Shown in pieces: positions 16,584-53,670 of a stretch of DNA of 64,000 nt. Origin of the DNA: a candidate division TA06 bacterium (GTDB taxonomy: Bacteria; Edwardsbacteria; AC1; EtOH8). Both the position numbers and the translations under genes were made by a program. Under the pieces are notes generated by a model, which saw nothing but the letters and a program-made list of their open reading frames with translations, had not been told where the DNA came from and did not search any database. Within the stretch, counting starts at the first letter, position 1, and each line of letters starts with the position of its first letter. The stretch is from positions 62,001 through 126,000 of the forward strand of contig JACRJI010000013.1 in NCBI GenBank assembly GCA_016235665.1, given 5' to 3'.

Positions 16584-16600
16584 ACCCGGGATAACTATTC

Positions 16601-16695
16601 TATCCGCAGATTAACGCAGATTATAATTTCTATTTTCATTCTTTGATAATCCAAATCATATATAAATCTGCGGAAATCTGTGAAATCTGCGGATA
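16601..16695. repeat. Class B inverted repeat element, copy 1
   Basis: The left arm reads TATCCGCAGATTAACGCAGA and the right arm AATCTGCGGAAATCTGTG followed by AAATCTGCGGATA, with an AT-rich centre. It sits just upstream of gmk; a GTG-started extension of gmk would lie inside it. Confidence 0.85.
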
Positions 16696-16730
16696 AAAAA
16701 TTCACATTAACAATAAGAACACACCTTGAC

Positions 16731-25910: not shown

Positions 25911-25938
25911 ACCTGAATTCACTTTTAAAAATGAAACT

Positions 25939-25995
25939 AACTCAACCCCTTTTATTCCCCTTCTCTTGAAAGAGAAGGGGCTAGGGGATGAGTTC
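25939..25995. repeat. Class A repeat, copy 5
   Basis: AACTCAACCCC...CCCCTTCTCTT/AAGAGAAGGGG...GGGGATGAGTTC, close to the prototype. Confidence 0.92.
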
Positions 25996-26762: not shown

Positions 26763-26769
26763 GAGCCTT

Positions 26770-26868
26770 TTATCCACAGATTAACGCAGATTATAACAAT
26801 TACTTTCCGCCTAATTGTTTGTTTCAACATGAGAAAATCTGTGATAATCTGTGAAAATCTGCGGATTA
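26770..26868. repeat. Class B inverted repeat element, copy 2
   Basis: Left arm TTATCCACAGATTAACGCAG, right arm AAATCTGTGATAATCTGTG followed by AAAATCTGCGGATTA; about 100 bases, AT-rich centre. Confidence 0.85.
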
Positions 26869-29080: not shown

Positions 29081-29135
29081 AACTCAACCCCTACACCCCT
29101 TCTCTTGTTAAGAGAAGGGGACGGGGGATGAGTTC
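29081..29135. repeat. Class A repeat, copy 6
   Basis: AACTCAACCCC...CCCCTTCTCTT/AAGAGAAGGGG...GGGGGATGAGTTC. Confidence 0.92.
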
Positions 29136-32831: not shown

Positions 32832-32847
32832 CCTACTGGCATCAATC

Positions 32848-32876
32848 CTTAGCCCAGCCCTTAAGGACTGGGCTAA
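32848..32876. repeat. Class E palindrome after fba
   Basis: TTAGCCCAG...CTGGGCTAA around CCTTAAGG; one mismatch pair. Closely matches 34851 and 39242. Confidence 0.85.
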
Positions 32877-32914
32877 AGATGAGTCATACGGTAAATTGAA
32901 CAAGGAGGTGTATC

Positions 32915-33571: not shown

Positions 33572-33593
33572 TAGTTATCTTACTTAGGAGCTT

Positions 33594-33692
33594 TTATCCG
33601 CAGATTAACGCAGATCATAGCGAATCATTTTGTGCTTATAATAATATCCCTATTTAGAAATATCTGTGTAAATCTGTGAAATCTTTGGATAG
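33594..33692. repeat. Class B inverted repeat element, copy 3
   Basis: Left arm TTATCCGCAGATTAACGCAG, right arm AATATCTGTGTAAATCTGTG; the outermost bases diverge (TTTGGATA). Confidence 0.8.
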
Positions 33693-33727
33693 AAAAGGTT
33701 TTGGTGTGTATTCCTGAAATAGTTAGA

Positions 33728-34840
<1,113 letters not shown>

Positions 34841-34850
34841 TCCGTCACGT

Positions 34851-34882
34851 TCATAGCCCAGCCCTTAAGGGCTGGGCTATGA
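34851..34882. repeat. Class E palindrome after gapA (perfect)
   Basis: TCATAGCCCAGCCC, TTAA, then the exact complement. It starts 10 bases after the gapA stop. Confidence 0.9.
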
Positions 34883-34922
34883 ATAACATTTCCTACTGGT
34901 GATTTTCAATGTCAGAAAATTG

Positions 34923-37443: not shown

Positions 37444-37806
37444 ATGAACATCAAAGCACATTTTCAAAAAGATTGGATCTACTACCTGGCCCTGGGAATG
37501 GCAATTATCTCCGTGGCCATAGACCTGTACCGCCCGAACATGGCGCCGATGCTGGCTGCGGTGCTGGTGTTCTCGGCAATACTGGGCTGGCTGAATGTCA
37601 TCGCCCCCAACAAGGCGGCGGCGGCCCTGGGATTCTGGATCCTGGCGGTCTATGTGGCCCTGGCCCTGCTGGAGATGATCCCGGCGACGAAGCAGAACAT
37701 CTTTTCCTCGGCGCTTTCGTTTGTTCCGGCGTATCTGGGGGCGTACGGAGGGTGGTGGATAGGGACCAAGTTCAAACGAACTCAACCCCCGGCCCCTTCT
37801 CTTTAA
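37444..37806 (+). CDS. Small integral membrane protein
   Basis: From the ATG at 37444 this is 120 residues with about four hydrophobic segments (for example YYLALGMAIISVAIDL and AALGFWILAVYVALALL). An ATG six codons earlier lies in a repeat. The last residues, TQPPAPSL, are encoded by the beginning of a class A repeat, which also supplies the stop codon. The normal C-terminus may have been cut when the repeat arrived. No family is recognised. Confidence 0.7.
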   Translation: MNIKAHFQKDWIYYLALGMAIISVAIDLYRPNMAPMLAAVLVFSAILGWLNVIAPNKAAAALGFWILAVYVALALLEMIPATKQNIFSSALSFVPAYLGAYGGWWIGTKFKRTQPPAPSL

Positions 37807-37834
37807 AAGAGAAGGGGAGCAAGGGGATGAGTTC
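37778..37834. repeat. Class A repeat, copy 8 (left of the DUF559 gene)
   Basis: GAACTCAACCCCC...CCCCTTCTCTTT/AAAGAGAAGGGG...GGGGATGAGTTC. It overlaps the end of the membrane protein gene by 29 bases. Confidence 0.93.
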
Positions 37835-37846
37835 TGGAAGTAATGT

Positions 37847-38227
37847 ATGAGCCTTAACATCAAAACAAAACTGGTGCCGCTGGCCAAAGCCCGTTGCCGT
37901 GAATTGCGCAAAAGGCAAACCAAGGCCGAAGAAATATTTTGGAATAAAGTAAGAAACAAACAATTTAAGGGGCTAAAGTTTTACCGGCAATATCCTTTGT
38001 TCTCGGATCTTCTTGGCAAGGAGACATTTTATATAGCGGATTATTACTGCCATACTAATCGTCTGGTGGTTGAATTAGATGGCAGAATTCACGAAAGGCA
38101 GAGGGAAAAGGATAGACTGCGGGATGAAGTAATTAACGACCTGGGATTAAAGGTTGTGAGAATAAAGAACAAAGATGTATTGGAAAACATCGAAGAAGTC
38201 ATGAAATGCATTAGCTCTGTTTTGTGA
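37847..38227 (+). CDS. DUF559 domain protein, Vsr-like endonuclease fold
   Basis: This 126-residue protein is a typical DUF559 protein: AKARCRELRKRQTKAEEIFW at the N-terminus, the KFYRQYPL segment, IADYYCHTNRLVVELDG and a closing HERQREKDRLRDEVINDLGL with VVRIKNKDV. The Asp in ADYY and the Glu/Asp in VELDG match the nuclease core of the very-short-patch repair/PD-(D/E)XK fold. The function of the family is not settled. It sits 12 bases after one class A repeat and 9 bases before two others. It is more AT-rich than its neighbours, as expected of a mobile gene. Confidence 0.9.
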   Translation: MSLNIKTKLVPLAKARCRELRKRQTKAEEIFWNKVRNKQFKGLKFYRQYPLFSDLLGKETFYIADYYCHTNRLVVELDGRIHERQREKDRLRDEVINDLGLKVVRIKNKDVLENIEEVMKCISSVL

Positions 38228-38236
38228 AGCCGGTCC

Positions 38237-38303
38237 GAACTCAACCCCCAACCCCTTCTCTTGGAAAATAAATAAGAGAAGGGGGGCAGGCGGATAGATT
38301 GAG
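38237..38303. repeat. Class A repeat, copy 9 (degenerate right end)
   Basis: GAACTCAACCCCCAACCCCTT with a CCTTCTCTT/AAGAGAAGG hairpin whose loop is extended (GGAAAATAAAT); the right end reads GGGGCAGGCGGATAGATTGAG. Confidence 0.85.
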
Positions 38304-38318
38304 ATGCTATTGTGCAAA

Positions 38319-38379
38319 GAACTAACCCAACCCCCGGCCCCTTCTCTTTAAAAGAGAAGGGGTGCAAGGGGATGAGTTC
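38319..38379. repeat. Class A repeat, copy 10
   Basis: GAACTAACCCAACCCCC, CCCCTTCTCTTT/AAAGAGAAGGGG, GGGGATGAGTTC. It is nearly identical in the centre to copy 8. Confidence 0.92.
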
Positions 38380-39241: not shown

Positions 39242-39277
39242 TTCCTTAGCCCAGCCCTTAAGGACTGGGCTAAGGAA
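39242..39277. repeat. Class E palindrome after kdsA
   Basis: TTCCTTAGCCCAG...CTGGGCTAAGGAA with the CCTTAAGG centre; outer stem 13 bp. Confidence 0.88.
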
Positions 39278-50908: not shown

Positions 50909-50918
50909 CTTAAGGAAT

Positions 50919-51023
50919 GAACTCAACCCCCAACTCCTTCTCTTTGCTTCGATAAACACTTAGGCATAACTCAGTGCATCGCTCAGCACAAGTTCCAGAG
51001 AAGGGGAGTAAGGGGATGAGTTC
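50919..51023. repeat. Class A repeat interrupted by a class D unit, copy 12
   Basis: The outer parts GAACTCAACCCC and GGGGATGAGTTC match the family. The hairpin loop is replaced by about 48 bases (GCTTCGATAAACACTTAGGC, then CTCAGTGCATCGCTCAGCAC). The copy forms the left border of a duplicated block. Confidence 0.85.
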
Positions 51024-51042
51024 CCAAATATATCAATCATCT

Positions 51043-51087
51043 ATGTCCAAACTAAAATTCATATTAGGGGTTCACAACCACCAGTAG
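51043..51087 (+). pseudogene. Duplicated 5' end of the GH57 gene
   Basis: The codons read SKLKFILGVHNHQ after the ATG, then a stop. This matches PKLKFIFGVHNHQ at the start of the gene at 51589. Together with the upstream repeat it is the left copy of a direct duplication of more than 100 bases. Confidence 0.9.
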
Positions 51088-51111
51088 TTGAAAACACGAA
51101 GCAGGATAAAC

Positions 51112-51438
51112 ATGGAGAAAAACAATAAAAACGGCGCGGATTTTAAGAACACCATTGATCTCATTGTAAAAAAGATCCGGCCCCAAAAAATAATCCTTTT
51201 CGGCTCCAGGGCTGACCGCAAGAACAAGGAATGGAGCGATTATGACATTTGCCTGCTTAAAGCCGGAGTTGTCAATAAGCGGAAAATGGCCCAAGATATA
51301 TACAAAATGCTATGAGGCTGTAATATCGCCATGGATATAATTGTGGAAACTCCCGAGAATTATTTGAAGCTCAAAAACAACCGTTTTATGATCTACAGCG
51401 AGATCGCGAAAAACGGGAAAGTGGTTTATGAAAAATAG
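51112..51438 (+). pseudogene. MNT-type nucleotidyltransferase antitoxin (MntA-like), interrupted by a stop codon
   Basis: The frame encodes a minimal nucleotidyltransferase: IRPQKIILFGSRADRKNKEW, then SDYDICLL, which is the GSxAxG(x)nSDxD motif. It meets an in-frame TGA at 51313-51315 and continues in the same frame as CNIAMDIIVETPENYLKLK and GKVVYEK to a TAG at 51436. Homologous proteins read through this point with an ordinary codon, so this is a nonsense mutation. The HEPN partner remnant begins in the last bases (ATGAAAAATAG overlap), the usual gene order for this toxin-antitoxin pair. Confidence 0.85.
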
Positions 51439-51514
51439 CGACCTGGCCAAAGAATGGCTTAAAAGAGCTCAAAGCAATCTGGCGAAAGCCGGTGTGTTAG
51501 AAATGACAGATTAA
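51428..51514 (+). pseudogene. HEPN toxin (HepT-like), truncated after 28 codons
   Basis: The ATG overlaps the nucleotidyltransferase end. The reading KNSDLAKEWLKRAQSNLAKA is the start of the first HEPN helix. The frame is cut by a class A repeat, whose first bases give the stop. The RNase motif (Rx4-6H) normally lies further downstream and is absent, so no toxin is made. Confidence 0.8.
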
Positions 51515-51568
51515 CTCAACCCCCAACCCCTTCTCTTTAAAAGAGAAGGGGAGTAAGGGGATGAGTTC
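51513..51568. repeat. Class A repeat, copy 13
   Basis: AACTCAACCCCCAACCCCTT, CTTCTCTTT/AAAGAGAAG, GGGGATGAGTTC. It forms the right copy of the duplicated block in front of the GH57 gene. Confidence 0.92.
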
Positions 51569-51588
51569 CCAAATAAAATCAATAATCT

Positions 51589-53670
51589 ATGCCCAAACTA
51601 AAATTCATATTCGGGGTTCACAACCACCAGCCGGTGGGCAATTTCGACTTTGTGTTTGAGGATGCCTACCAGAAGGCCTACAAGCCTTTCCTGGATGTCG
51701 TGGCCGGCTATCCCTGGTTCAGGTTCACCCTGCACAACAGCGGCTGCCTGTGGGAGTGGCTGGAACAGCATCACCCGGAATACCTGGAACAGGTCAACAC
51801 CATGGTCCGGACCGGGCAGGTCGAGCTTTTGGGTGGGGGATTTTACGAGCCCATCATGCCGGCCATCCCCGACCGCGACAAGCAGGGCCAGCTGAAGATG
51901 ATGTCGGAGTTCCTGAATAACAAATTCGGCAAAACCCCGTCCGGGGTCTGGCTGGCCGAGCGGGTGTGGGAGCCGGGGCTGGCCTCGGTCCTGGCCGGCG
52001 CCGGGATAAAGTACACGGTGCTGGACGACTATCATTTCAAATGCTCCGGCAAGAACGACCAGGATCTTGACGGCCACTATATCACCGAGGACCAGGGCCA
52101 GCCGCTGGCCGTCTTTCCCATCAGCCAGCAGCTCCGCTATCTGATCCCCTTCCACAATGTGGACGAGGTCATCGCCCATCTTAAAACCCTGTACCAGCCG
52201 GATCGGGAGACTTTGGCCGTACTGGCCGACGACGGGGAAAAGTTCGGGGTCTGGCCTGGCACCCACGAACTGGCCTATGAAAAGGGCTGGCTGAAAAATT
52301 TCCTGGACGCGCTGGAAGCGAACAAGGAGTGGCTGGAACTCTCTACTTTCAGCCAGGCGCTGGAAGCGCTTCCGGCCAGGGGCCGGATCTACCTGCCCAC
52401 CGCCTCCTACGCCGAGATGGGGGAATGGGCGCTGGATCCGAAAGCCGAGGCGGTCTATTCGGAGCTGACCCAAAGGCTGAAGGGCGAGGGCAGCTATCCC
52501 CGTTACAGCCCGTTCGTCAAGGGCGGCACCTGGCGGGATTTTTTGACTAAATACCCCGAATCCAACAACATCTACCGCAAGATGCTCTCGGTCTCGGCCA
52601 AGGTTTCTGGCCAGGGTCCCGAGGTCCTGCGGGAACTGTACCGGGGGCAGTGTAACTGCGGATACTGGCACGGAGTGTTCGGCGGCCTGTATCTGCCGCA
52701 CCTGCGCGAGGCGCTGTACCGGCATCTGATCCGGGCCGAGAATCTGATGGGATCAAACCCTGAAACCTCTGCGCCCTCTCTGGAGGCCAGGGAATTCGAT
52801 TTTGACGGCGACGGCCAAAACGAAGTGGAACTGTCCAACCGTCATAGCAGGCTTTACCTGTCCCCGGCCGCCGGCGGCAGTCTGGTGGAGTGGGATGCCC
52901 GGGAAAAGGAGATAAACCTGTTCGATACCCTGGCCCGCCGACCCGAAAGCTACCACCGGAATATTCCGAAGCCGGGCGATCAAAGCGCATCCCAGGGCAA
53001 GAGCATCCACGAGATGGTGGTCTCCAAGGAAGAGGGCCTGCAGAACATCCTGTTCTACGACTCCTTCCGCCGGGTAGGCCTGGTGGACCACCTGCTGGGG
53101 CCGGAGACGGACCTGGAATCATTTTACCGCAACTGCCACCGGGAGCAGGAGCCGGGCTTAAACGGTGCATGGGTTCATGAGACAAACAGGGAAGCGGAAC
53201 GGGCCACGGTGGAACTCACAAAAATAATAAACGATCTGACCGTCGTCAAGAAGATCGTCTTCGGGACCGGGCCGTCATTCAGGATAGAATACAGCTGGAT
53301 GAACTGCGGTCTTAAGGAAATGGAGATCTGGCCGGGGATAGAGTTCAACTTCGGCCTGCTGTCTTCGGGTTTCGGGCGGCACTGCCGGAGCGCCAGCCAG
53401 ATACTGTCCACCGAAGCCCTCAATGTCCGGGCCCAGGATCAGGATATTTCCCAGCTCTCGGTGATTGACGGATACCGCAACCTTTCCGTCGACTTTGACC
53501 TGGACCAGGCCTGGGATCTCTGGCGTTTTCCGGTGGAGACCGTCTCCCAGTCGGAATCTGGGCTGGAGCGGAACTACCAGTGCTCGTGTTTTTTATGGAA
53601 TAAAAGGATAAAACTTTTGCCGGACCGGCCGCAAACATTAATTTTCACACTGGAACATAAGGCAATTTGA
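51589..53670 (+). CDS. Glycoside hydrolase family 57, 4-alpha-glucanotransferase-type
   Basis: This 693-residue protein has the GH57 motifs HNHQP (residues 11-15), GGGFYEPI, WLAERVWEP with the nucleophile Glu124, LADDGEKFGVWPGT with the acid Asp214 or Asp215, and ASYAEMGEWAL. The C-terminal half (DUF1925/1926-like, after about residue 390) is the beta-rich domain of the T. litoralis-type 4-alpha-glucanotransferases. It probably remodels maltodextrin or glycogen in the cytoplasm. The gene is located between hprK and ptsH and overlaps ptsH by one base, hinting that carbohydrate reserves and PTS control are linked. The sequence is intact. Confidence 0.93.
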   Translation: MPKLKFIFGVHNHQPVGNFDFVFEDAYQKAYKPFLDVVAGYPWFRFTLHNSGCLWEWLEQHHPEYLEQVNTMVRTGQVELLGGGFYEPIMPAIPDRDKQGQLKMMSEFLNNKFGKTPSGVWLAERVWEPGLASVLAGAGIKYTVLDDYHFKCSGKNDQDLDGHYITEDQGQPLAVFPISQQLRYLIPFHNVDEVIAHLKTLYQPDRETLAVLADDGEKFGVWPGTHELAYEKGWLKNFLDALEANKEWLELSTFSQALEALPARGRIYLPTASYAEMGEWALDPKAEAVYSELTQRLKGEGSYPRYSPFVKGGTWRDFLTKYPESNNIYRKMLSVSAKVSGQGPEVLRELYRGQCNCGYWHGVFGGLYLPHLREALYRHLIRAENLMGSNPETSAPSLEAREFDFDGDGQNEVELSNRHSRLYLSPAAGGSLVEWDAREKEINLFDTLARRPESYHRNIPKPGDQSASQGKSIHEMVVSKEEGLQNILFYDSFRRVGLVDHLLGPETDLESFYRNCHREQEPGLNGAWVHETNREAERATVELTKIINDLTVVKKIVFGTGPSFRIEYSWMNCGLKEMEIWPGIEFNFGLLSSGFGRHCRSASQILSTEALNVRAQDQDISQLSVIDGYRNLSVDFDLDQAWDLWRFPVETVSQSESGLERNYQCSCFLWNKRIKLLPDRPQTLIFTLEHKAI

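Follow-up and report, generated by a model that had tools for sequence, protein, structure and literature searches.

A DUF559 nuclease gene and BoxC/PIT-type triplex repeats as candidate parts of one selfish system in bacteria

Introduction

Does a small nuclease gene belong to the palindromic repeats that frame it, and do the two move together? The question is raised by one locus in the window, i.e., the whole stretch of 64,000 nucleotides from a candidate division TA06 bacterium that was analysed here. A preliminary description of this locus had placed a DUF559 gene among copies of a repeat called class A, had likened the arrangement to REP/RAYT pairs, and had proposed a new type of mobile system. 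Repeats of the BoxC/PIT/intrastrand triplex motif family, to which we will compare class A, have been recognised since the 1990s in more than 260 genomes and have been tied to genome instability in Escherichia coli (PMC4666352). The dedicated 2015 study found no mobility gene near them and counted 23 TMECO copies in E. coli K-12 (PMC4666352). Triplex formation in vitro has been demonstrated for TMECO only (PMC4666352).

Results

Nuclease Gene and Class A Repeats in the Window

The nuclease gene and the class A repeats of the window are the following.

1495 to 1547, no strand assigned: solo class A repeat
25938 to 25995, no strand assigned: solo class A repeat, present at the matching site of the related genome G001, lacking in G002
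29081 to 29135, no strand assigned: solo class A repeat, matching sites in G001 and G002 without a repeat
37778 to 37834, no strand assigned: complete class A repeat of BoxC type, GAACTCAACCCCC..GATGAGTTC, ending 12 bases before the ATG
37847 to 38227, plus strand: gene for a predicted PD-(D/E)XK-type nuclease of the DUF559 family (PF04480), complete ORF, 126 codons, 126 aa
38237 to 38303, no strand assigned: degenerate class A repeat whose loop, GGAAAATAAAT, is longer and whose right outer arm has decayed
38319 to 38379, no strand assigned: complete class A repeat sharing 95% identity with that at 37778 to 37834
50918 to 51023, no strand assigned: class A repeat split by an insert of about 50 bp
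51512 to 51568, no strand assigned: class A repeat before a GH57-like gene

The preliminary description had given a gene of 126 codons with one repeat 12 bases upstream and two more within 9-92 bases downstream, and these coordinates were confirmed, the degenerate copy beginning 9 bases past the stop codon and the third repeat about 92 bases past it. Its statement that the same repeat is scattered through the window also held, since there was no DUF559 gene at the copies near 1495, 25938, 29081, 50918, and 51512. The core that it had named, searched as GAACTCA-N0-30-TGAGTTC, had zero matches in the window because the true spacing is longer. The Rfam search over the window returned tRNAs only.

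The genome that contains the window (G000) comprises 2.71 Mb in 16 contigs. Genome-wide, the pattern CCCTTCTCTT-N0-16-AAGAGAAGGG occurred in 23 copies and the reversed control pattern in none; BLAST near-matches added weaker and half copies to the family. This genome has five DUF559 genes, and five of the 23 copies lay within 150 bp of two of them, where about 0.013 copies would be expected from flank length by our own arithmetic (5 genes × 300 bp in 2.7 Mb). These two genes, that of the window and one at C5:10025, carried the exact class A repeat on both sides, and the other three were accompanied by hairpin repeats of the same build with different stems (CCCTCTCC, CCCTCCCC, and TCCCTCCCC), so that a repeat of this build adjoined 5/5 DUF559 genes. 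Class A repeats also framed an ordinary acetyltransferase (GNAT) gene at C11:171093-171720.

Two further arrangements of class A sequence were observed in this genome. Six pairs of inverted half-repeats, each about 80 bp long, looked like another short element in which two class A halves are combined (C3:153691-153774, C3:254705-254786, C6:53825-53906, C11:129779-129860, C14:35901-35984, and C16:78847-78928). At window positions 50917-51630, two repeats 545 bp apart had between them a split class A repeat, an MNT-type nucleotidyltransferase gene in decay, and a duplicated GH57-like gene start.

Architecture of the Repeats

The class A element is about 56 bp long and consists of an inner pyrimidine/purine hairpin and of outer arms that mirror its stem. 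In the copy at 37778-37834, the outer arms are GAACTCAACCCC and GGGGATGAGTTC and the inner stem is formed by CCCCTTCTCTT and AAGAGAAGGGG. Each outer arm mirrors the inner stem if T is permitted for A, as in AAGAGAAGGGG followed by GGGGATGAG or GGGGTTGAG, and in AAGGAGGGG followed by GGGGTGGTC. Such third-strand arms were present in 73% of 188 flanking elements vs 13% of shuffles. We thus assigned the elements to the BoxC/PIT intrastrand-triplex motifs because of these mirrored arms: three consecutive stem blocks follow each other as Y-R-R, the third arm mirroring the purine stem. The elements are also multi-copy and intergenic (23 copies in 2.7 Mb). The motif pattern occurred 5-105 times per genome in most genomes with DUF559 genes, with stem variants that differ between repeat subfamilies (e.g., CCCCTCCTT, CCCCTTCTCTT, and CCCTCTCC).

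The likeness to BoxC/PIT/TMECO covers the C-rich stem, the G-rich stem and the G-rich third arm, the intergenic location, the many copies, the instability between relatives, and the lineages concerned (E. coli, Neisseria, and cyanobacteria). Unlike in published BoxC/PIT repeats, the class A stem CCCCTTCTCTT is a lineage-specific sequence, and a DUF559 gene is tied here to each repeat sub-class, whereas no mobility gene was reported for the published repeats (PMC4666352).

At three loci (L085, L077, and L115), small inserts ending in CTCAGTGCAGGCTC were seen within BoxC-type repeats and apparently represent a nested element.

The DUF559 Protein

The window ORF matched the PF04480 profile with E = 1.2e-29 and 102.8 bits (gathering cut-off 20.6). 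Conserved residues of the protein are R21, E28, W32, F45, R47, Q48, D65, E76, and D78, followed by G79, H82, D89, R92, and R105, and the invariant ones among DUF559 proteins are consistent with a PD-(D/E)XK/EDxHD nuclease. Profile comparison of the sequence retrieved 3HRL (NGO0050; 1.7e-35) and 3R3P (I-Bth0305I; E = 1.7e-5). The AlphaFold model (pLDDT 84.8) fitted the same two structures, with a Foldseek value of 5.7e-3 and probability 1.0 for 3R3P, and TnsA weakly. The modelled fold, together with the conserved acidic residues D65, E76, and D78, indicates a PD-(D/E)XK/Vsr-like enzyme whose catalytic domain is related to that of EDxHD homing endonucleases. A cyanobacterial paper assigns DUF559 to the EDxHD homing family (PMC9403480). 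Among the phage records searched, only 3 weak matches to DUF559 were found.

The window gene differs from its homologue in G001 by 8, 5, and 30 changes at codon positions 1, 2, and 3, and the third position likewise changed most in all other DUF559 pairs compared. This concentration of changes at third codon positions indicates that the protein has been kept functional by purifying selection. Many DUF559 proteins finish in translated repeat sequence (PSPGLPGEGQG, TPPIKGGE). At locus L076:7308-8393, a downstream methyltransferase is joined in frame to DUF559 via a translated repeat.

Linkage of DUF559 Genes and Hairpins Across Bacteria

We used a composition-specific test, a pyrimidine-purine stem score of at least 8 within 150 bp of the gene, because a generic hairpin score that did not demand a pyrimidine/purine stem separated DUF559 genes only weakly from controls. 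In a first set of 61 DUF559 genes, gathered regardless of their flanks from the family of the window's genome and from unrelated genomes, a hairpin was present at 56/61 genes vs 57/495 control ORFs (Fisher 6e-39, a value that overstates independence since the set includes related genes). Hairpins on both sides were found at 25/61 DUF559 genes vs 4/495 control ORFs of the same stretches. When controls had intergenic space on both sides, 20/140 had a hairpin and 1/140 had hairpins on both sides.

The test was devised after the first loci had been seen; a second, named set and a series of annotated records came afterwards. The second set was collected by protein similarity only, with one DUF559 clade as query, and is phylogenetically broad (Bacteroidota, Ignavibacteria, Chloroflexi, Planctomycetota, Acidobacteria, Nitrospirae, Geobacter, and several CPR groups). 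Here, 69/76 DUF559 genes had a hairpin vs 4/74 controls, and 37/76 vs 1/74 had hairpins on both sides. In the annotated records, which include E. coli, Neisseria gonorrhoeae, Sinorhizobium, Azospirillum, Deinococcus, Pseudanabaena, and cyanobacteria, slightly wider flanks gave a hairpin at 13/16 DUF559 genes. About 8% of the surveyed DUF559 genes had no flanking hairpin. Outside the family of the window's genome, 9/11 genomes with a strong DUF559 match carried the motif vs 8/40 of those without (p = 3e-4).

The comparison of DUF559 flanks with those of other genes, proposed in the preliminary description as a check of its idea, thus came out in its favour, such hairpins being about 8 to 20 times more frequent than at controls in related and unrelated genomes. 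A chance association was rejected, as the reversed pattern gave 0 matches and control ORFs, those of the second set included, lay far below the DUF559 genes.

Specificity and Match of Stem to Protein

In the same genomes, the pyrimidine/purine hairpin was found at 1/23 Y1 transposase genes (RAYT/IS200 type) and at 0/25 genes for GxxExxY nucleases. These families had their own paired flank repeats, with scores of at least 14 at 14/23 Y1 and 13/25 GxxExxY genes; for comparison, 8-9% of ordinary ORFs reach paired-repeat scores of at least 13. The two controls rule out that the hairpins accompany any small mobile gene. Movement of class A repeats by a RAYT was unsupported as well, since the Y1 genes had 0 class A repeats and almost no pyrimidine/purine hairpin in their flanks.

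Across genomes, protein identity correlated with stem similarity (Mantel r = 0.29; largest of 500 permutations 0.067), the exclusion of same-genome pairs being the sole adjustment for genome relatedness. Distant DUF559 proteins within one genome had a common stem in 1.6% of pairs, and DUF559 proteins 45-60% identical in different genomes in 30-38% of pairs. The stem sequence thus tracks the DUF559 protein clade across phyla rather than the host genome.

A side observation, at window 16598-16700, 26768-26807, and 33592-33696 and at loci L260-L289, concerns GxxExxY (PF13366) nuclease genes. CAGAT/CACAGA-rich repeats like the class B repeats of the window lay at 5/25 GxxExxY genes and at 0/63 DUF559 genes. 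The GxxExxY genes and their own flanking repeats are perhaps a second nuclease-repeat pair.

Presence and Absence at Matching Sites

The preliminary description had called for strain pairs with and without the block, and differences of this kind were found between related genomes. At the window locus, which lies before kdsA, the cassette was intact in G000, reduced to a 3' remnant in G001, and absent from G002; G001 encodes a protein 90% identical to the window's DUF559 protein elsewhere, upstream of fba. At an MFS transporter site, three genomes (G005, G007, and G009) had the series repeat, DUF559, repeat, cargo gene, repeat, while G000 had a different palindrome and G008 was without a cassette. 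Three Deinococcus species each have the cassette at a different junction within the hpa gene cluster, and where NW-56 has its cassette, two genes of D. proteolyticus overlap by 4 bp.

Eight solo-repeat sites were compared with congeners whose flanks were about 70-97% identical. Four were without the repeat in every congener compared, one was without it in one of two congeners, and three had it in both. Genomes of one family had between 1 and 11 DUF559 genes each. That matching sites of relatives differ in having a cassette or a solo repeat supports mobility. There was no clean target-site duplication at the matching sites compared. Flanking repeats were direct or inverted and complete or half, and one simple mechanism does not explain this variety.

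Several other rearrangements were recorded at such sites. The palindrome TTAGCCCAGCCCTTAAGGRCTGGGCTAA (window 32846-32879, 34850-34883, and 39243-39276; also L219 and L297) sits where sister genomes have BoxC-type repeats or DUF559 cassettes. At L061, L071 (radA), L053 (fba), and L294 (DUF1156), partial copies or an interruption of the neighbouring gene start lay beside DUF559 insertions; the radA, fba, and DUF1156 sites look as if the 5' end of the target gene had been duplicated. The intergenic site matching window 29081-29135 in G002 (C139) carries an insertion of a Y1/RAYT-type transposase (L210 2020-2960).

Discussion

We favour, with a probability of roughly 0.6, the reading that a single selfish nuclease-repeat system comprises both the DUF559 gene and the class A repeats. 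The 126-aa protein is most likely a homing-type nuclease whose target would be the repeat of its own subfamily. A DUF559 dimer would nick or cut the cognate repeat, probably while the repeat is single-stranded or folded in replication, and the break would be repaired from another repeat copy. What is thereby copied into the broken site would be the repeat, either by itself or as two copies that enclose the nuclease gene. Solo repeats could be products of such copying, or remnants left after the cassette recombined out between its flanking repeats.

The closest parallel is REP/RAYT (PMC2817692, PMC8266576), in which palindromic intergenic repeats likewise frame one small nuclease gene, many solo copies exist, and the enzyme clade matches the repeat class. 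Here also, palindromic repeats lie at the nuclease gene and occur solo elsewhere. The difference is in both partners: RAYT is a Y1/HUH tyrosine transposase and DUF559 an unrelated, PD-(D/E)XK/Vsr-type nuclease by prediction, and the DUF559 repeats are of triplex type and missing from the Y1 genes of the same genomes. The GTAG/CGTC foot tag of REP was not seen by eye in the consensus GAACTCA..TGAGTTC. The REP/RAYT-like pairing that had been proposed for this locus thus stands in that nuclease and repeats belong together, as linkage and specificity indicate; the system would work like REP/RAYT, but with an enzyme other than a Y1/HUH transposase it falls outside that group.

I-Bth0305I (3R3P) shares the predicted catalytic fold. 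It forms a dimer on its target, which spans nearly 60 bp (PMC3943268) and is close in length to the repeat (56 bp). I-Bth0305I is a multi-domain phage intron protein, whereas the DUF559 protein of the window is a bare 126-aa domain, without intron or intein and framed by repeats.

The E. coli protein YcjD (b1289) and NGO0050 of N. gonorrhoeae (3HRL) are DUF559 proteins whose genes are adjoined by BoxC-type repeats. In E. coli K-12, ycjD is flanked by fabI and sapF; a BoxC-type copy occupies the gap that separates ycjD from fabI, and an intact copy is found only some 150-250 bp downstream of ycjD. This is also the envM/fabI region in which BoxC was first noted, which offers a lead. Action in trans would be weak or extinct in E. 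coli because one annotated DUF559 gene was seen for 23 TMECO copies and the intact copy is distant. With one annotated copy at a fixed site, ycjD differs from the cassettes described above and, as a mobile element, appears inactive.

Correia/NEMIS elements and other MITEs are short non-autonomous intergenic elements with inverted repeats, and in these traits class A resembles them. It differs in having, as far as seen, no DDE transposase as mover and no detected target duplication. An IS-like reading, in which DUF559 would be a TnsA-like cut-and-paste enzyme, the cassette a minimal transposon, the hairpin elements its terminal inverted repeats and the solo repeats MITE-like, draws on the inverted ends of a subset of cassettes. 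These near-perfect long inverted flanks reach local scores of 102 in S. meliloti, 78 and 54 in Hymenobacter (L160 and L141), and 28 at C12:167591 in G000, and TnsA was among the weaker fold matches of the model. We nevertheless regard this reading as unlikely: many cassettes, that of the window included (direct 51, inverted 22), carry direct or complete copies, target-site duplications were not found at the matching sites, and no integrase or transposase that might act as a partner was observed next to the cassettes. It is less probable still that DUF559 is a passenger, carried by recombination among BoxC-type repeats that another factor or replication slippage has spread. The repeats do outnumber the DUF559 genes, and they also flank the GNAT gene and cargo beside DUF559, but ordinary genes seldom have them on both sides (4/495), two other small mobile gene families of the same genomes almost never carry them, and tracking of the DUF559 clade by the stem across phyla is not expected of a passenger.

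A host function, with DUF559 as a Vsr-like housekeeping nuclease of DNA repair that would resolve folds or triplexes formed at the repeats, would agree with the relationship of DUF559 to Vsr (PMC1189080) and with Caulobacter VsrA, a DUF559 protein that is DNA-damage induced and proposed to act in mismatch repair (PMC12907096). Such an enzyme would act on repeats anywhere and would not need to have its own gene framed by them, and copy numbers of 1 to 11 per genome in one family, at positions that differ between congeners, argue against it, so that we give it slightly less credit than the passenger. Lastly, intergenic hairpins beside a small gene could be its ordinary transcription terminators or regulatory hairpins. 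This we consider very improbable, as the repeats stand upstream as well as downstream, are without a T-run, have mirror outer arms and are missing from control genes, and as earlier tests, cited in PMC4666352, detected neither promoter nor terminator activity of BoxC/PIT elements.

The claim of a new type of mobile system, made from the window alone, thus needs to be divided: the repeat half was already known, class A belonging to the described BoxC/PIT family, which the preliminary description had missed, and the link to a DUF559 nuclease appears to be new. In the open-access literature consulted, no report was found that links BoxC to DUF559, or DUF559 to flanking repeats. The selfish nuclease-repeat reading can be widened, at what we judge to be even odds, to a pan-bacterial mobile class in which a minimal PD-(D/E)XK homing nuclease (DUF559/YcjD) would recognise a folded triplex-type repeat by its subfamily-specific stem and would spread both itself and gene-less copies.

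If true, this wider reading would explain how the BoxC/PIT/triplex repeats arose, which occur in hundreds of genomes as far apart as those of E. coli and the Candidate Phyla Radiation. The system would then represent a second, independently evolved REP/RAYT-like arrangement, one that differs in both enzyme fold and DNA structure. Should the enzyme read folded DNA, it may also provide a tool to detect triplexes in cells. DUF559, represented in E. coli K-12 by ycjD, is a named candidate for the missing factor that spreads these repeats, and this would give a possible function to what is still a domain of unknown function.
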